From NCBI GenBank assembly GCA_030626025.1, contig DAOUPT010000002.1, forward strand, positions 69,118-133,117: a DNA stretch of 64,000 bases, written 5' to 3'. The notes below the pieces were generated by a model that saw only the letters and a list, made by a program, of their open reading frames with translations, was not told where the DNA came from and searched no databases. This DNA comes from Anderseniella sp. (GTDB lineage: Bacteria; Pseudomonadota; Alphaproteobacteria; Rhizobiales; Aestuariivirgaceae). The position numbers and the translations under genes are program-made. Position 1 is the stretch's first letter, and every line of letters begins with the position of its first letter. Below, one piece after another: positions 32,502-55,573 of the stretch.

Positions 32502-33317
32502 ATGAATGAAAACCGACAACAAAAAATTATCGATCTGCAACAGCGACTGGCCACTGCTGGTGTGGTTTTTGGTGTGCGGAACTCTCTCAAACAACCATCA
32601 GCCTCCAGTGAAATCCACCATGACTTTCCGCCCGATTTCCCCGTAGATCTGGTGCAAATGGCGGTGCTGAACGAGATCTCAACAACAACATATGGCGACA
32701 TAAGCTCTTACGGATTTGCCCTTATGATTTTGCGCCAGATAGCAATGGCTCAAGATGAAAAGTTTTTATGGTGCATGGCCGGTCGTCAGCCTCTCGAAAG
32801 CGGTCAGCTGTTCGCCCTGGGATTAAGCGCCATTGGCATTGACCCGGCAAAAATCATCCAGCTTGAGGTCCGCCGGACAATCGATGTTTTGTGGGCCATG
32901 GAAGAAGCGGCCCGCAGCGGTGCTCTCAAAGCGGTTGTTGGCATCATCGACAATCTGACCTTCACCCAAAGTCGCCGCCTGTCACTGGCCGCCGCCCGGG
33001 GCCAGACACCAGTCTTTATGCTCCGTCCATATAATAACGATGGCGCCAGCACCGCCTTCAGCCGCTGGCGGCTTTCCAGCCGTCCAGGTCAGGTCAATAT
33101 TTATAACCCCCGCACGCCCTCTGGCATTCAGGGACCGGGACGCGCCGCCTTTGAGGTCGAGCTTTACCAGTGCCGTGACGGGCGCAGGGGCAAATGGGTA
33201 TGTCATTATGAAAACCAAAAACACCAAACGGCGCATCGCCTGTCTGTGGTTGCCACAACTGGCAATCGAACGCCTGTATCGCACTTCCCCCAGCGGGCAA
33301 AAAAACGTAACCGATGA
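32502..33317 (+). CDS. imuA: ImuA, RecA-like partner in SOS mutagenesis
   Basis: A 271-residue protein. The RecA-like core has YGFALMILRQIAMAQDEKFLW, a degenerate P-loop region without a true Walker A, and VVGIIDNLTFTQSRRLSLAAARG. The C-terminal AFEVELYQCRDGRRGKWVCHYE is the usual ImuA end. The frame then runs 36 residues further, over 110 bases of imuB, a longer overlap than is normal; those residues are probably dispensable. ImuA helps recruit ImuB and DnaE2 for error-prone bypass. It is first in the operon under a LexA box. Confidence 0.88.
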   Translation: MNENRQQKIIDLQQRLATAGVVFGVRNSLKQPSASSEIHHDFPPDFPVDLVQMAVLNEISTTTYGDISSYGFALMILRQIAMAQDEKFLWCMAGRQPLESGQLFALGLSAIGIDPAKIIQLEVRRTIDVLWAMEEAARSGALKAVVGIIDNLTFTQSRRLSLAAARGQTPVFMLRPYNNDGASTAFSRWRLSSRPGQVNIYNPRTPSGIQGPGRAAFEVELYQCRDGRRGKWVCHYENQKHQTAHRLSVVATTGNRTPVSHFPQRAKKRNR

Positions 33318-34776
33318 CCGCCCTTTTGCCCTGATTGAGACCGACGCAAAAGGCATGCGCATTTTTGCCACCAACAGCGCTGCCCATATCGCAGGCATCA
33401 AACCGGCGATGCGCCTCAGTGATGCCAGAGCCATCTGCCATCAATTGCAGGTGCGCCAGCATCAAGCCAAAGCAGACACTGATGAAATGTCCCGTATAGC
33501 CTGCTGGCTGGAACGCTATACCCCCTCAGTGCAAATACATGGCCCTGATACGATCCTGCTTGATATTACCGGAAGCGCCCATTTATTCGGTGGCGAAAAC
33601 CCCATGCTCACCAACCTGCGCCACCGGCTGGTACAAATCGGCTATACAACAAGGCTTGGTCTGGCCGATACAATCGGGGCAGCTTTTGCACTGGTTCGTT
33701 ATGGCGAAAAAGACATCACCATAATCGCCCCGGACAAGTTGCATCAAGGCCTTGCCTTTCTGCCGGTCCGCGCCTTGCGCCTGTCACCGGAACAGGCCGA
33801 CAGCCTTTACGGTCTGGGGCTAAAAACCATCGGCAATCTGTTTGACATCCCCCGCGCCAGTCTGGCCCGGCGCTTTTCCGGGGTGCGAGATGGCGCGTCG
33901 GTATTAAAACGACTGGATCAAGCCCTCGGCCTTTGCCACGAACCATTGCAACCCCAAAGGCACCCGCCATCCTTGCGGTTTTCACTGAACCCGGCTGAAC
34001 CGTGCCTGCATCATGACGGCATAAAAGCGGTCTTTGACATATTGCTTGACCGCCTGCTCGCAAAGCTGGAGCGGGAAATGCAAGGCTTGCGAAAGTTAAG
34101 TTTCAGGTGTTTTTACACCGATGGTGGCGAGAAATGTCTTTCAGCCAGCTTTGCCAAACCCTGCCGGGTGAAAAAACATATCGAAATTCTTTTTAACGAT
34201 CAGTTAATCGATATCGACCCACGCTTTGGCCTTGACGGATTTGTCCTGTCGGCTGATCTCACCGATAAAGTGCAAGCCTTCCAGAACGGTTTGCTTGAAG
34301 AAGGCCACCATCAAACTGGCAAGCTGTCCGAACTGATTGACCGGCTTGTCAATCGCCTCGGCAAAGACGCCATCTTTCAGGTCGAAGGCTATCAGAGCCA
34401 TTTACCGGAACGGGCCCAAAACCGGGTTCCCGTCTTGCAACAAGCCGTCAACAAACCCAAACCACCACACCACCCCCGTCGCCCGATTACCATTTTTACC
34501 CACCCCGAAACTATTGAGGTCATCGCCGAAATTCCCGAAGGCCCACCCATGCGATTTCACTGGCGCCGGGTTTTGCGGCAGGTCACCCGTGCCCGTGGTC
34601 CTGAGCGCATCGCCCCGGAATGGTGGTCCGGCGGCTCCGGCACTGCCAGAACACGTGACTATTACGAAGTCGAAGATATCGGCGGCCAGCGTTATTGGCT
34701 GTTTCGCGCCGGTCTTTATGATGAACCCGTTCCTGCCTCTCCACCCCATTGGCACATCCACGGATTATTCCTGTGA
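33208..34776 (+). CDS. imuB: ImuB, inactive Y-family polymerase-like mutasome hub
   Basis: A 522-residue protein with the Y-family fold. The catalytic acids are absent: the first site reads IACLWLPQLAIERL where polymerases have hxxDxDxFF, and the second reads ILLDITGSAHLFGGE in place of SxDE. This matches ImuB, which ties DnaE2 to the beta clamp and does not polymerise. The C-terminal part holds the PERIAPEWW segment typical of the family. The start at 33208 (MKTKNTKRRIACLWLP) overlaps imuA. Its stop overlaps the dnaE2 GTG (GTGA). Confidence 0.9.
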   Translation: MKTKNTKRRIACLWLPQLAIERLYRTSPSGQKNVTDDRPFALIETDAKGMRIFATNSAAHIAGIKPAMRLSDARAICHQLQVRQHQAKADTDEMSRIACWLERYTPSVQIHGPDTILLDITGSAHLFGGENPMLTNLRHRLVQIGYTTRLGLADTIGAAFALVRYGEKDITIIAPDKLHQGLAFLPVRALRLSPEQADSLYGLGLKTIGNLFDIPRASLARRFSGVRDGASVLKRLDQALGLCHEPLQPQRHPPSLRFSLNPAEPCLHHDGIKAVFDILLDRLLAKLEREMQGLRKLSFRCFYTDGGEKCLSASFAKPCRVKKHIEILFNDQLIDIDPRFGLDGFVLSADLTDKVQAFQNGLLEEGHHQTGKLSELIDRLVNRLGKDAIFQVEGYQSHLPERAQNRVPVLQQAVNKPKPPHHPRRPITIFTHPETIEVIAEIPEGPPMRFHWRRVLRQVTRARGPERIAPEWWSGGSGTARTRDYYEVEDIGGQRYWLFRAGLYDEPVPASPPHWHIHGLFL

Positions 34777-37700
34777 ACAATTCAGACACATCATATGCCG
34801 AACTACAGGCAACCAGTAATTTCAGCTTTCTGCGTGGCGCATCACACCCGGCAGAACTGGTTGAAGTCGCGGCCAAAAAAGACCTCAAAGCCCTTGCCAT
34901 TGTTGACCGCAACTCCTTTGCCGGTCTGGTCCGTGCCCATCTGGCGGCAAAGTCTCATGACCTCAAACTGGTCATCGGTTGTCGGCTTGATCTGACCGAT
35001 GGCCCATCCCTGCTGGCTTACCCAACCAACCGCAAAGCCTATGGTCGCCTGTGTGCCCTGCTCAGCCGGGGCAAATTGCGCGCTGCCAAAGGTGCCTGTG
35101 AACTGACATTGGATGATGTATTTGAACACGCTCAAGATAGTTTGTTCGCAATCATTCCTCCGCCACAGATTACCACCGGACTGGCCGATCAATATCAATT
35201 CATCACAGCCCGGCTGCCGCACAACACCTACCTTGTTGCCAGCCATTCCTATCGCGGTAATGATCGTGAATATATCGCCTGGCTGGATCAATTGGCCAAC
35301 CAGACCGGTAGCCGGTTACTGGCCACCAACAATGTCCATTACCACGAACCATCACGTCGCCCCTTGCAGGATGTCATCAGCTGCATTCGCGAAGCAAAAC
35401 TGGTCAGCAAAGCCGGATTTTTGCTGGCCGCAAACAGTGAGCGATACATCAAAACACCAACCCAAATGGCCCATCTGTTCAAAGGTTTTGAACACGCCCT
35501 TAAAGCCTCACTCGAAATCATTCATCGCTGTACCTTCTCTCTTGACGAGCTGCGTTACGAATATCCGCTTGAACCGATCCCCAAAGACAAAACCGCCCAG
35601 CAACATCTCGATGACCTGGCCTGGGCAGGTGCCCACTGGCGCTATGGTCAAGACATTCCAGCCAAAGTAACTGCCAGCCTGCGCAAGGAATTGGCAATGA
35701 TTGAGGAACTCGAATACGCACCCTATTTCCTGACCGTGCACGACATTGTCGATTACGCCCGCACCCCGCAACCACAGCTTGGCCGCCATGACCCGATTCT
35801 CTGTCAGGGCCGCGGCTCAGCGGCTAATTCTTGCGTTTGTTACTGTCTTGGCATCACCTCGGTTGATCCAACTGAAATAGATCTGTTATTCGAACGCTTT
35901 GTCACCAAAGAACGAAACGAGCCACCTGATATTGACGTGGATTTCGAACACGAACGGCGCGAGGAAGTCATCCAGTATATCTACCAGCGTTACGGTCGCG
36001 ATCGGGCCGGAATAGCTGCAACCATCGTCACCTATCGCTCGCGCAGTGCCATTGCCGAAGTCGGCAAGGTGATGGGCCTGACGCCCGATGTAACCTCACT
36101 AATTGCCAAAACCGTCTGGGGTTCACACGGTCGCGAAGTCACCGACCGACAGGTTGAAGAAAGCGGCCTTGATTTAAACGATCCCCATTTATCCCTAATC
36201 ATCGACCTCACGCACCAATTGATCGGCTTCCCCCGCCACCTGTCTCAACATGTAGGCGGCTTTGTCCTGACCCGTCACCTGTTGACCGAAACCGTCCCGG
36301 TCGGCAATGCCGCCATGAAGGACCGCACCTTTATTGAGTGGGACAAGAACGATATTGATGCTCTCGGCATTCTAAAAGTTGATGTATTGGGCCTTGGCAT
36401 GCTGACCTGCATTCGCCGCGCTTTTGATCTGCTGCACCAGCATTATGGCATCCGTCACACCCTGGCCAGCCTGCCGCAAAACGATCAGGCTGTATACGAC
36501 ATGATCTGCAAGGCCGACACTCTTGGTGTATTTCAAATCGAAAGCCGGGCTCAGATGAGCATGCTGCCGCGTTTGCAGCCCCGCTGTTTTTACGATCTGG
36601 TCATTGAAGTGGCTATCGTGCGCCCCGGCCCCATACAGGGCGACATGGTCCACCCCTATCTGCGCCGCCGCAAGGGCCTCGAACCTGTCATCTTTCCATC
36701 CCCCCGCCCTGATCAGGGACCGGCAAATGAACTGGAACAAATCCTCGGCAAAACCAAGGGCGTGCCGCTGTTTCAGGAACAGGCCATGCGCATCGCCATG
36801 GAAGCGGCAAAGTTCTCGCCATCCGAACTCAACCAGCTACGCCACGCCATGGCCACCTTCCGCCGCAATGGCACCATTCATACACTGGAAGAAAAAATGA
36901 TCACCCGCATGACCTCGCGCGGCTATAGCAGCGACTTTGCCGAACGTTGCTTTAATCAGATCAAGGGCTTTAGCGATTACGGTTTCCCTGAAAGCCACGC
37001 CGCCAGCTTCGCCCTGCTGGTCTACATTTCCTGCTGGCTCAAACACCATTACCCCGCCGTATTTGCCTGCGCCCTGCTCAATTCACAACCCATGGGCTTT
37101 TACGCCCCGGCCCAGATTATCCGCGATGCCCGTCAGCATGGCGTCAAGGTCTACGATGCCGACATCAATTATTCTGACTGGGATTGTACCATTGAAGGTC
37201 AAGCCTTGCGCATCGGCCTGCGCCAGATACGCGGACTGGCAAAGGAGCGCGCCTTCGATCTGGTCACCAGTCGCGATAAACCTTTCACATCTCTGCACGA
37301 CCTTCAACAACGTACACAATTGCGCATTTTTGACATCGAAAGACTAGCCCTGGCCGATGCCTTTCGCTCCATCGGTTTAGACCGCCGTCAGGCACAATGG
37401 CAGGCGCGGGCATTATCAAGCCAAAGCAAATTCCCCCTGTTCGTCCATGCCGATGCGCCACAAGAAGGTTTTGAAGAACCGGTGCAATTGCCACTAATGC
37501 CATTGTCTGAACACGTAATCGCCGATTATCAGAACCTGCGCTTCTCGCTTAAAGCCCACCCGGTCACCTTTCTGCGCAATGATTTGACCCGCGTCAAAAT
37601 CATCACCACCGTACAAATGGCCAGTATGAAAAACCGCGCCTGGGTGCGCGTTGCAGGCCTTGTACTCGTCCGCCAAAGACCGGGGTCGGCCAAAGGCGTG

Positions 37701-37937
37701 GTGTTCATGACCATTGAAGATGAAACCGGCGTTGCCAATATTATCGTCTGGAAAACCGTTAAAGAACAATACAACAAAGTGGTTATGTCAGCAAAGCTGG
37801 TCGAAATTTACGGCCAGATACAAAGCCAGGACAACGTCATGCATCTGGTTGCCAAAAAACTGACCGACAGAACCCCAATGCTGGCTCAATTAGCAGGCGC
37901 GCAGCCAACAATGCCCGCCTCGCGCGACTTTCATTAG
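34773..37937 (+). CDS. dnaE2: error-prone DNA polymerase DnaE2 (ImuC)
   Basis: A 1054-residue C-family polymerase. The PHP domain is at 1-210 (YAELQATSNFSFLRGASHP); catalytic aspartates lie in PPDIDVDFEHERREEV; GRGSAANSCVCYCLGIT and PLFQEQAMRIAMEAAKFSP follow; an OB-fold sits near the C-terminus (WVRVAGLVLVRQRPGSAKGV). It carries out translesion synthesis after DNA damage together with ImuA and ImuB. The GTG at 34773, overlapping the imuB stop, is preferred over a TTG at 34749. It ends the SOS operon; a hairpin-rich region follows. Confidence 0.95.
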   Translation: MNNSDTSYAELQATSNFSFLRGASHPAELVEVAAKKDLKALAIVDRNSFAGLVRAHLAAKSHDLKLVIGCRLDLTDGPSLLAYPTNRKAYGRLCALLSRGKLRAAKGACELTLDDVFEHAQDSLFAIIPPPQITTGLADQYQFITARLPHNTYLVASHSYRGNDREYIAWLDQLANQTGSRLLATNNVHYHEPSRRPLQDVISCIREAKLVSKAGFLLAANSERYIKTPTQMAHLFKGFEHALKASLEIIHRCTFSLDELRYEYPLEPIPKDKTAQQHLDDLAWAGAHWRYGQDIPAKVTASLRKELAMIEELEYAPYFLTVHDIVDYARTPQPQLGRHDPILCQGRGSAANSCVCYCLGITSVDPTEIDLLFERFVTKERNEPPDIDVDFEHERREEVIQYIYQRYGRDRAGIAATIVTYRSRSAIAEVGKVMGLTPDVTSLIAKTVWGSHGREVTDRQVEESGLDLNDPHLSLIIDLTHQLIGFPRHLSQHVGGFVLTRHLLTETVPVGNAAMKDRTFIEWDKNDIDALGILKVDVLGLGMLTCIRRAFDLLHQHYGIRHTLASLPQNDQAVYDMICKADTLGVFQIESRAQMSMLPRLQPRCFYDLVIEVAIVRPGPIQGDMVHPYLRRRKGLEPVIFPSPRPDQGPANELEQILGKTKGVPLFQEQAMRIAMEAAKFSPSELNQLRHAMATFRRNGTIHTLEEKMITRMTSRGYSSDFAERCFNQIKGFSDYGFPESHAASFALLVYISCWLKHHYPAVFACALLNSQPMGFYAPAQIIRDARQHGVKVYDADINYSDWDCTIEGQALRIGLRQIRGLAKERAFDLVTSRDKPFTSLHDLQQRTQLRIFDIERLALADAFRSIGLDRRQAQWQARALSSQSKFPLFVHADAPQEGFEEPVQLPLMPLSEHVIADYQNLRFSLKAHPVTFLRNDLTRVKIITTVQMASMKNRAWVRVAGLVLVRQRPGSAKGVVFMTIEDETGVANIIVWKTVKEQYNKVVMSAKLVEIYGQIQSQDNVMHLVAKKLTDRTPMLAQLAGAQPTMPASRDFH

Positions 37938-37968
37938 AGCGTTTCATGTTTACATGGAACCGCTCAAG

Positions 37969-38002
37969 CGGAGCGATGCGCTTGGCGCATCTTGCGTGAG
38001 CG
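37969..38002. repeat. short repeat with variable hairpin, copy 1
   Basis: CGGAGC, then a GATGCGC-TTG-GCGCATC hairpin, then TTGCGTGAGCG. The flanks are identical to those at 41450-41485, while the stem sequence differs yet still pairs. Confidence 0.6.
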
Positions 38003-38010
38003 GAGTAAAC

Positions 38011-38045
38011 CTAGACTGTTTCAGTCAAAGAATGAAACAGTCTAG
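38011..38045. repeat. 13-bp perfect inverted repeat
   Basis: CTAGACTGTTTCA and TGAAACAGTCTAG, nine bases apart, 73 bases after dnaE2. No T run follows on either strand. Confidence 0.8.
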
Positions 38046-38228
38046 AAGGTGTAGCAATTTGAGATTTGCTGTTAACAAATCAACCCAATAACAATAATTT
38101 TCCCACCTCACAATTGTGTTTGAAAAGTCTCAAACCACAACATCTCGTAGGGAACAAAAACAGAATCTCGTCAAGTCAGCGATTCGGTCACCATCTGTTC
38201 CCGTTTGATTCCAAACGTTAACAACAAT

Positions 38229-38276
38229 AAAAAAAGCCAGCCATCACGCGAGGGGAAAGCGTGAATAGCTGGCTCT
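38229..38276 (-). terminator. intrinsic terminator of the candidate small RNA
   Basis: The minus-strand stem AGCCAGC/GCTGGCT with an inner CACGC/GCGTG stem is followed by seven T residues. On the plus strand only four T residues follow, so it works mainly leftward. Confidence 0.8.
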
Positions 38277-38341
38277 TTTAGAACAAGGCCCGAACTATTG
38301 AGGGTCAGGGAGCGGATCAGCGCGTAGTCCGAACCTTGCAA
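38229..38341 (-). ncRNA. candidate trans-acting small RNA with CU-rich loops
   Basis: A transcript of about 112 nt on the minus strand. A perfect TATAAT (38353-38348) lies just upstream. The 5' stem pairs 38338-38326 with 38296-38284 over 13 continuous positions. On the minus strand three of these are G-U wobbles; on the plus strand they would be A-C mismatches, so the strand is clear. The loop holds CCGCUCCCUGACCCUC. A second hairpin (GAGCCAGC.../GCUGGCU, inner CACGC/GCGUG, loop UUUCCCCUC) ends in seven U residues. Two CU-rich, anti-Shine-Dalgarno-like loops recall the alphaproteobacterial regulatory RNAs of the AbcR/alpha-r type. Targets and family are not known. Confidence 0.65.
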
Positions 38342-38347
38342 AACTAA

Positions 38348-38353
38348 ATTATA
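38348..38353 (-). promoter_or_regulatory. TATAAT -10 box of the candidate small RNA
   Basis: A perfect -10 hexamer on the minus strand about seven to ten bases before the proposed RNA start. No good -35 box is seen at the usual distance. Confidence 0.5.
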
Positions 38354-38467
38354 AGAAACGCCTCTTTTTGTTTGTTGTTATTTTGTTTCTTCATGCGGTT
38401 AACTTGATATGAGTTCTAGCAAGGTATGGCTGAACCAAATCTGAGTGGGCTGTTCATATTGGGTTCA

Positions 38468-39412
38468 TCAATATCCAGCTGTTCGGTCCACCGTTTCAGG
38501 CATATCCCCGTCTTCAAAAAACCTGACAATATTTCCCGCTGCCAACGCCGAAGCTGTCTGATAATTGGTCCGTGCAGAAATATGCGGCAGAATTGTAACT
38601 TTGGCATGGTTCCACAACGGATCATCCTGCGGCAATGGCTCGATATCAAACACATCCAGAACAGCATGACTCAAATGCCCGCTATCAAGCGCCTTAATCA
38701 AAGCGCGATTATTGATTACCGGCCCACGGGCAAAATTGATCACGCCTGCCCCATGCGGCAAAAGCCCCAATGTCTTCTCATCCAACAAATCACGAGTCTG
38801 GGCTGTAAGCGGCACCAGAATGATCAGGATATCCGAACGCTTTAAAATTTTACCCAATCCCTCTGGCCCGGCAAAGGTCGCCACCCCGTCGATATCAGCT
38901 TTCGACCGGCTCCAGCCGCAGACATCAAAGCCATTATCGAGCAGTCGCCTCGCCGCAACGGTGCCCAATTTGCCAAGTCCGAGAAAACCGACACAGCGCT
39001 GTGATGGCAAAGGCAACTCGCAATGTTGCCAGATTTTCTTCTCCTGCTGTACTCGATAGGCGGGCATATCGCGATGTAGATAAAGCGTCCAGGCAAGCGC
39101 TGCCTCACTCATGTCAGCGGCCAATTGCGGATCGGTCAGCCGGACAATATCAAAATTAGCATCCGGCAATTCAACCATCAACCGTTCAACCCCGGCCCAA
39201 AGACTCTGCACCCATTTCAGCTTCGGCAACAAGGCAAGATCAGCCGGATCAGGATCAGCAATAATCGCCACCTCAACCCCAGCCCGTTGTTCATCACCGA
39301 CCTGATCAAACGCCACCACCTGATAATCAGGCAAAGCATCCTGCAGAACCTTCAACCACAATTGCGTTTCATCACCGTCCAACCGGGCAACAAATGGGAT
39401 CATTTTTTTCAT
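38468..39412 (-). CDS. glyoxylate/hydroxypyruvate reductase A-type dehydrogenase
   Basis: A 314-residue D-isomer 2-hydroxyacid dehydrogenase. GFLGLGKLGTVAARRLLDNG is the NAD(P)-binding Rossmann motif; NFARGPVINNRALIKAL holds the catalytic Arg; VFDIEPLPQDDPLW the Glu and ILPHISARTNYQTA the His. The N-terminal MIPFVARLDGDETQLW and overall length fit the GhrA group, which reduces glyoxylate or hydroxypyruvate. The long frame upstream (to 39676) is not used; the ATG at 39412 gives the normal start. It is a single gene; the small RNA lies about 130 bases beyond its stop. Confidence 0.85.
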   Translation of the reverse strand: MKKMIPFVARLDGDETQLWLKVLQDALPDYQVVAFDQVGDEQRAGVEVAIIADPDPADLALLPKLKWVQSLWAGVERLMVELPDANFDIVRLTDPQLAADMSEAALAWTLYLHRDMPAYRVQQEKKIWQHCELPLPSQRCVGFLGLGKLGTVAARRLLDNGFDVCGWSRSKADIDGVATFAGPEGLGKILKRSDILIILVPLTAQTRDLLDEKTLGLLPHGAGVINFARGPVINNRALIKALDSGHLSHAVLDVFDIEPLPQDDPLWNHAKVTILPHISARTNYQTASALAAGNIVRFFEDGDMPETVDRTAGY

Positions 39413-39574
39413 AGCACAAACACTCAATCTTTTTTCTAAAGCCAACATCATTTTCATTAATCGGGAACCACAGCCCTTACTTGCATCATCAACCCTTGAC
39501 CTTGCAACCGATTGCCGCCAAAAAGAGCGATAAATTACTTTTTCCTCATTCAAGATACCGTGAAAGCTCTTCCC

Positions 39575-40180
39575 ATGGAAAAATTCACCAAACTGACCGG
39601 CGTTGCAGCTCCAATGCCACTGCCCAATATCGACACCGATATGATCATCCCCAAGCAGTTTCTCAAAACCATTCATCGCACTGGTCTTGGCAAATCACTG
39701 TTTTATGAAATGCGTTACCATGAAGATGGTACAGAGAACGAAGATTTCGTTCTCAACAAACCAGCCTGGCGCAAAGCTGAAATCCTTGTTGCTGGCGAAA
39801 ACTTTGGTTGCGGATCATCGCGCGAACACGCCCCCTGGGCCATTGCCGATTTCGGCATACGCTGTGTGATCTCCACCAGCTTTGCTGATATTTTCTATTC
39901 AAACTGTTTCAAGAACGGCATTTTGCCGATCAAGCTGCCACAGGAAGACATCGACAAGCTGATGGATGATGCCGAGCGCGGTGCAAATGCCACGGTCAGC
40001 GTTGATCTGGAAAGCCAGACCATCACCGGCCCTGATGGCGGCACCATCAATTTCGAGGTCGATGCCCACAAAAAACATTGCCTGCTCAACGGCCTTGATG
40101 ACATTGGCCTAACCATGGAAAAACAATCCTCGATTAAAGCCTTTGAAGCAAAACAAGCTGCAACCCAGCCCTGGGTTTAA
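39575..40180 (+). CDS. leuD: 3-isopropylmalate dehydratase small subunit
   Basis: A 201-residue swivel-domain subunit. [19 protein letters not shown] near the start and [21 protein letters not shown] (split as [24 protein letters not shown]) are the LeuD signatures. With LeuC it isomerises 2- to 3-isopropylmalate in leucine synthesis; leuC is not in the window. The frame is open from 39512, but the ATG at 39575 ([15 protein letters not shown]) matches the family. leuB follows after 29 bases, so they form an operon. Confidence 0.94.
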
Positions 40181-55036: not shown

Positions 55037-55399
55037 TTACAGATAACGAACGCTGTAAATATATCCCGAACGTGATTTAATCCGCAGTTTGAACCATTCA
55101 CCGTGGCGTTTTGCATGGAAGGTATAGCGTGAACCTGAGCAATCGACGGCACGAATGCGGCGGTAACCGCGATTGCGAATTTTGCGACGTACCTGGCCAC
55201 ATGACATGCGATAACGGCGAACCGGACGATAGTAGCGATCACTATGACCGTAATAACCATGACCATATCCACCGCCATAATAACCGGGAAGGCCAATGCC
55301 AATGCCGATGTTTACTCTGGCTTCTGCTTGCTCAACCGGTTGAAATGCAACAAAGCTTGCAACAAGTGCGGTAGCGGCGATAATTGTTTTCTTGAACAT
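55037..55399 (-). CDS. secreted Gly/Tyr-rich protein, unknown
   Basis: A 120-residue precursor. A signal peptide (about 1-27, cleavage near AEARV) is followed by a Gly/Tyr/His-rich segment (about 31-60) and a basic C-terminal domain with two cysteines (MSCGQVRRKIRNRGYRRIRA and VDCSGSRYTFHAKRHGEWFK). The C-terminal motif GY..I..VDCSG..Y.F.A...G....L.I is common in rhizobial secreted proteins of unknown role. It ends at the bidirectional terminator. Confidence 0.75.
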   Translation of the reverse strand: MFKKTIIAATALVASFVAFQPVEQAEARVNIGIGIGLPGYYGGGYGHGYYGHSDRYYRPVRRYRMSCGQVRRKIRNRGYRRIRAVDCSGSRYTFHAKRHGEWFKLRIKSRSGYIYSVRYL

Positions 55400-55573
55400 A
55401 ATGTTTCCTCCTAAAATCGGCCCTCAAATGCTTGGCCGTGATCAACGATGGATACACAATGCCCCGAACGCCCTGAACCAAACCTGTAAGGCCTGTTCAT
55501 ACTCCGTTCATGTGGACAATTATCGATGTAAGTATATGTTTTTACACTATATTATTTTTCAAATTAATTTGAA

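Follow-up and report, generated by a model that had tools for sequence, protein, structure and literature searches.

A candidate C-rich-loop small RNA and its conserved promoter box near leuD in Anderseniella

The locus and its minus-strand RNA

The window, by which we mean the whole 64,000-nucleotide stretch of Anderseniella sp. DNA analyzed here, carries leuD and a ghrA-like gene on opposite strands and, downstream of the latter, a short interval that folds into two hairpins (Table 1). On the far side of this interval lie an apparent imuA-imuB-dnaE2 translesion cassette (32502-37937, plus strand) and, after dnaE2, a palindromic block (37938-38050, plus strand; AGCGTTTCATGTTTACATGGAAC... and AGACTGTTTCA...TGAAACAGTCT). 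A close DnaE2 is absent from the three other species of the genus, to which we refer as the congeners (G001, locus L114; G002, L113; G003, L115); in G006 (L118), dnaE2 adjoins leuD. Because G001 has a similar ...AAACATGAAACGCTCTAG palindrome, the block is probably an interspersed repeat. For the ghrA-like gene the congeners have distant members and no close ortholog. Its closest relatives, at 55-60% identity, belong to other families and even to other classes (the named ones include Roseibium and Rhizobiaceae), and judging from such comparisons it was probably acquired.

Table 1. Features of the locus and of the other box sites discussed in the text
Feature	Position	Strand	Remark
Proposed sRNA transcript	38229..38407	-	~179 nt; 5' end placed by the distance to the -10, 3' end by the U run
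Hairpin 2, intrinsic terminator	38229..38281	-	loop UUUCCCCUC, U7 tail; loop recurs in G001
Hairpin 1	38282..38339	-	CCGCUCCCUGACCCUC in the CU-rich apex; congeners share a CUGACCCU-type element
5' leader (AACAACAAACAAAAAG)	38342..38407	-	A-rich, weakly structured; partly conserved in congeners
TATAAT of the preliminary description	38348..38353	-	no -35; conserved box lies upstream
Proposed -10, TAGAAC	38413..38418	-	11 nt after the box
Promoter box, TGAAC-N6-TGAAC-N7-TCAGA-N2-TGGTTCAG	38430..38467	-	38 bp; invariant core in all four species
ghrA-like 2-hydroxyacid dehydrogenase gene	38468..39421	-	NCBIfam GhrA match below cut-off
leuD, leucine-synthesis gene	39554..40180	+	syntenic anchor; congener sRNA homologues upstream, on the opposite strand
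Second box copy in the window	55473..55510	-	upstream of the 120-aa protein, ATG at 55399
120-aa small secreted protein (MFKKTIIAATALVASFVAFQPVEQAEA...)	55037-55399	-	downstream of the second box; relatives recur in the genus
L163, second box-driven RNA	own genome, C21:28976-29013	-	counterparts L253, L254 and L255 in the three congeners

The two hairpins formed by the minus strand of 38229-38341 have a folding energy of -50.2 kcal/mol (z -6.75), and none of 200 shuffles was as stable, whereas the plus strand gives a weaker fold (-40.2 kcal/mol, z -3.10); the structure is thus far stronger on the minus strand, and the feature is real, beyond chance. The whole proposed transcript (38229-38407) folds with a z of -3.96. 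The 13-pair stem formed by 38338-38326 with 38296-38284 contains exactly three G-U or U-G pairs on the minus strand, all of which become A-C mismatches on the plus strand, just as the preliminary description had it. Given these minus-strand hairpins, the G-U-containing stem and the seven U residues, an RNA of the minus strand ending in an intrinsic terminator is the natural reading: stable hairpins and a U run on one strand are what is expected of a trans-acting sRNA with an intrinsic terminator, and both occur at 38229-38341 on the minus strand. The preliminary description had reached the same strand and the same type of sRNA, both of which are supported, and its CU-rich loop and its second hairpin with terminator are found as loop 1, which contains CCGCUCCCUGACCCUC, and as hairpin 2, with its loop UUUCCCCUC and seven U residues after the stem. 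The automatic terminator scan left hairpin 2 unflagged, its loop being longer than the limit of 8 set in that scan. The A-rich leader may offer a contact for Hfq.

That description had also recognized no known family, and a search with the Rfam models agreed, in that none matched the window RNA, including AbcR / ar15 and the other alphaproteobacterial sRNA models. The ar14 / NfeR1 model (RF02344) gave no match in 37930-38500 of the window even at E values up to 10, and nothing above its gathering score (58.8 bits) in the window or the congener loci.

The promoter box, its conservation and its outputs

A 38-bp box, defined here from sequence, which includes direct repeats spaced by 11 bp and a CTCA-N7-TTCA core, lies upstream of the RNA and is the best conserved part of the locus among the four species, better conserved than the RNA body; its expected number of chance occurrences, from shuffles of the window, was 0. 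At 71 of 108 box sites, the dinucleotide TA (often CTA) occurs exactly 11 nt past the box, compared with at most 13 sites for any other offset. This fixed spacing suggests a -10 element, which would place the start of the transcript near 38407 and give an RNA of ~179 nt.

By blastn against its own genome and 60 relatives, the sRNA found only itself, the remainder being short chance matches. When a covariance model made from this one sequence was run over 100 relatives and 397 order genomes, it too returned the window RNA alone. The best other match of the model (E 0.009, in L107) and further ones were rejected as GC-rich or simple hairpin coincidences. The 31 named genomes inspected for synteny around GhrA held no sRNA downstream of that gene. 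Through synteny with leuD, we found a diverged minus-strand counterpart of the RNA, with CU-rich tracts, upstream of leuD and on the opposite strand in all three congeners. Only in this genome is the sRNA promoter separated from leuD by the ghrA-like gene, and here the box stays with the sRNA and not with leuD. The position downstream of a GhrA-type gene, by which the feature had first been described, is thus true of the window but incidental, as the congeners carry the sRNA and its promoter upstream of leuD without ghrA.

The bodies of the congener RNAs drift fast and align poorly; their C-rich elements stay while the stems around them are replaced. In hairpin 1, the element CUGACCCU(C/U) is kept across the congeners, in G002 as CUGGCCCUU. 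The loop UUUCCCC(C)UCG, carried in the window on the stem CACGC/GCGUG, is carried in G001 on an unrelated but fully paired stem, UGCCUGAC/GUCAGGCA. The loop of hairpin 2 appears in G001 as UUUCCCCCUCG, on an unrelated paired stem, and both G001 and G002 have a second hairpin downstream with a CCCCCUC loop. In G003, hairpin 1 is C-rich and the loop of the second (terminator) hairpin is not CU-rich. Stability was far above that of shuffles in three of the four RNAs, the window RNA included, the exception being the first body in G002 (z 0.63). Given the exceptions in the G003 loop and the G002 stability, it is the design that is conserved and not every part of it. As for the comparison of homologous regions and their covariation proposed at the outset as a check, the regions exist in all three congeners and keep their C-rich loops while their stems change, and formal covariation is weak because the bodies align poorly, the G002 body shows no excess stability and the second hairpin of G003 lacks a CU-rich loop.

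When two mismatches at most were allowed, 133 of the 397 genomes of the order proved to have the box, whereas the same pattern reversed, which served as the control, was found in 0. Beyond the order the box, in a stricter form, is almost lacking: of about 285 other genomes in the class, 3 had it. At 105 box sites where we inspected the DNA downstream, 90 had a signal-peptide-like ORF (a few of these assignments look spurious) and 15 had none, and the ORFs mostly encode small secreted proteins. About eight box sites (the window RNA, L163, L175, L178, L183, L184, L190 and L225) precede an sRNA-like transcript with a terminator hairpin and, mostly, C-rich unpaired tracts, and have no signal-peptide-like ORF, the one called at L190 being probably spurious. 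Such transcripts also follow box sites in further families of the order, one of which includes G094. There the box drives two RNAs in tandem, L175 and L178, which have UCCUCCC loops and score weakly against ar14 (34.7 bits, E 0.0016), short of the gathering score. The six box sites of the window's own genome precede the window sRNA, L163, three secreted proteins (one of them the 120-aa protein of the window) and one output that is unclear, so that two of the six are noncoding.

The L163 RNA family is present in all four species, the window species included, and L163 itself matches no Rfam sRNA. A UCCCCUGCAAA element is conserved in the family, and its terminator combines a constant UCUCCC loop with stems that differ but stay paired (CCCCACAC/GUGUGGGG, CCCCACAUU/GAUGUGGGG and CCCCCGCAU/AUGCGGGGG). 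In this genus, one and the same box would thus serve two sRNA families that are unrelated to each other.

In G006 and G014, a box that lies upstream of leuD and is likewise oriented divergently from it precedes a small secreted protein. Protein and RNA output may have traded places one or more times at a comparable promoter; alternatively, the two sites may be of separate origin. Since the box mostly drives small secreted proteins in related bacteria, the RNAs that it drives are probably part of a response to cell-surface stress that has been overlooked. More tentatively, and with confidence somewhat short of even, we suggest an order-wide envelope regulon, defined by the 38-bp box and its fixed -10, with a fast-evolving RNA arm: depending on the lineage, promoters of this kind would yield a small secreted protein or an sRNA with C-rich loops, in one case at the same locus beside leuD, and the window RNA would be one of the two unrelated box-driven sRNAs of the genus.

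Alternative origins of the hairpins

The small secreted proteins driven by the box at the leuD-divergent position in G006 and G014 raise the alternative that the locus is a decayed gene for such a protein, in which the promoter persists, the coding sequence has been lost and the hairpins are a terminator plus drift. The leader, which has AUGAAGAA near its start and then early stops in G001 and G002, would fit such a history. However, all four species keep the box without a long signal-peptide ORF, the C-rich loops stay while other paired stems are substituted for the old ones, the excess stability is retained in three of the four RNAs, and the same design is found at a second locus, L163. We regard a decayed gene as unlikely.

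A different start for the sRNA was implied by the preliminary description, which had taken as its promoter the TATAAT at 38353-38348 on the minus strand, giving an RNA of ~110 nt. The TATAAT is present, its hexamer is perfect, and a start there would fall immediately before hairpin 1, but it has no consensus -35 hexamer (a sigma-70 scan returned nothing) and is unconserved in the congeners, whereas the box upstream is conserved. The conserved promoter element spans 38467-38413 and predicts the longer RNA, with a start probably ~66 nt further upstream, and the TATAAT probably lies inside the transcript rather than acting as its promoter; we find a start at this hexamer quite unlikely.

Since ghrA shares the strand of the hairpins and its stop codon lies immediately next to the box, the hairpins could also close the ghrA mRNA, as its 3' end or terminator, or form an sRNA derived from its 3' untranslated region, without a promoter of their own. 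This reading is distinctly improbable, given that the congeners, which lack this ghrA at the locus, still keep the box and the RNA and that the box has a promoter-like -10 at a fixed distance. A plus-strand leader or attenuator of leuD, suggested by the conserved position upstream of that gene in the congeners, is scarcely credible, because the plus-strand fold is weaker, the opposite-strand ghrA separates the structure from leuD here and a CTTGAC-type promoter sequence remains leuD proximal.

Candidate regulator, proposed action and known systems

Direct repeats spaced by 11 bp are typical of the sites of OmpR-family response regulators. The core of the box, CTCA-N7-TTCA, is one base off TTCA-N7-TTCA, which a study of Sinorhizobium meliloti describes upstream of FeuP-dependent genes and proposes as the FeuP site, promoter Motif 3 (PMC3616915), and FeuPQ is reportedly activated under osmotic stress (PMC12486126). 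ChvI and CenR were rejected as regulators: the published ChvI sites (TTGC-N3-GCAA and GCC-N8-GCC; PMC9731502) are unlike the box, and the published CenR site differs from it. FeuP or a FeuP-like regulator of the OmpR type would be the best candidate, the link to FeuP itself being hypothetical. A known FeuP target is ndvA/chvA; sought in this genome as a check on the regulon, it gave nothing above the cut-off, which counts against a firm assignment to FeuP.

Taken together, these results make it reasonably likely that the locus encodes a trans-acting sRNA of ~179 nt, controlled through the box by an OmpR-type (FeuP-like) regulator and ended by a U7 terminator, whose C-rich loops repress mRNAs. 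The structure, strand and terminator, the conservation of the box and of the C-rich loops, and the other members of the regulon are results of computation; we infer its expression, the identity of its regulator, its action by base pairing and its targets. Envelope or osmotic stress would activate an OmpR-type two-component response regulator, which would bind the box and start transcription near 38407, in parallel with that of the small secreted proteins, and transcription would end at the U7 terminator. The loops CUCCCUGACCCUC and UUUCCCCUC, which resemble anti-Shine-Dalgarno sequences, would then pair with G-rich ribosome-binding sites and repress translation, most plausibly that of envelope or transport mRNAs. 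When the loops were paired with the start regions of the 47 genes in the window, 48 of 100 shuffled loops did as well as the loop of hairpin 1 and 9 of 100 as well as that of hairpin 2, a pairing not clearly better than that of the shuffles. NfeR1 is described as repressing mRNAs by covering their ribosome-binding sites (PMC10746234), and such blocking has been suggested for other C-loop sRNAs (PMC3927594). The locus supplies concrete promoters and RNAs for testing, and a poorly described box (Motif 3, the candidate FeuP site) would become a search handle for sRNAs whose bodies change so quickly that blast and covariance models miss them.

The window RNA shares with NfeR1 / ar14 of rhizobia its hairpins, its unpaired, C-rich, anti-Shine-Dalgarno-like motifs and its terminator, but it does not match ar14 at an E value of 10, and whereas NfeR1 of S. 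meliloti reportedly has LsrB as its activator and NtrC as its repressor (PMC10746234), the window RNA has the box described here. With the Cuckoo-type RNAs (SmelA075 and SmelA099; PMC3927594) it has in common repeated hairpins whose stems change freely around C-rich loops that are conserved; the loop that defines those RNAs, CCUCCUCCC, is absent from it, however, its own loops being CUCCCUGACCCUC and UUUCCCCUC. The box is longer than Motif 3 (PMC3616915), from which it also differs in its TGAAC direct repeats; the excerpted text of that study names 12 genes as members of the motif's candidate FeuP regulon, no sRNA among them. We take the order to be Rhizobiales/Hyphomicrobiales, on the grounds that the box is an extension of this S. 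meliloti motif, that it is found with an ar14-like RNA and that Roseibium and Rhizobiaceae are among the named GhrA relatives. A parallel in regulation may be ChvR, which is described as specific to Caulobacter crescentus, is controlled by ChvI-ChvG and acts through base pairing of a stem-loop with the mRNA of an outer-membrane receptor (PMC6237742). ChvR is an sRNA under a conserved envelope two-component system, as we propose for the window RNA, although the ChvI consensus sites (PMC9731502) do not resemble the window box. If our reading is true, the system would be an alphaproteobacterial counterpart of the enterobacterial design in which one envelope regulator governs both surface proteins and repressor sRNAs.
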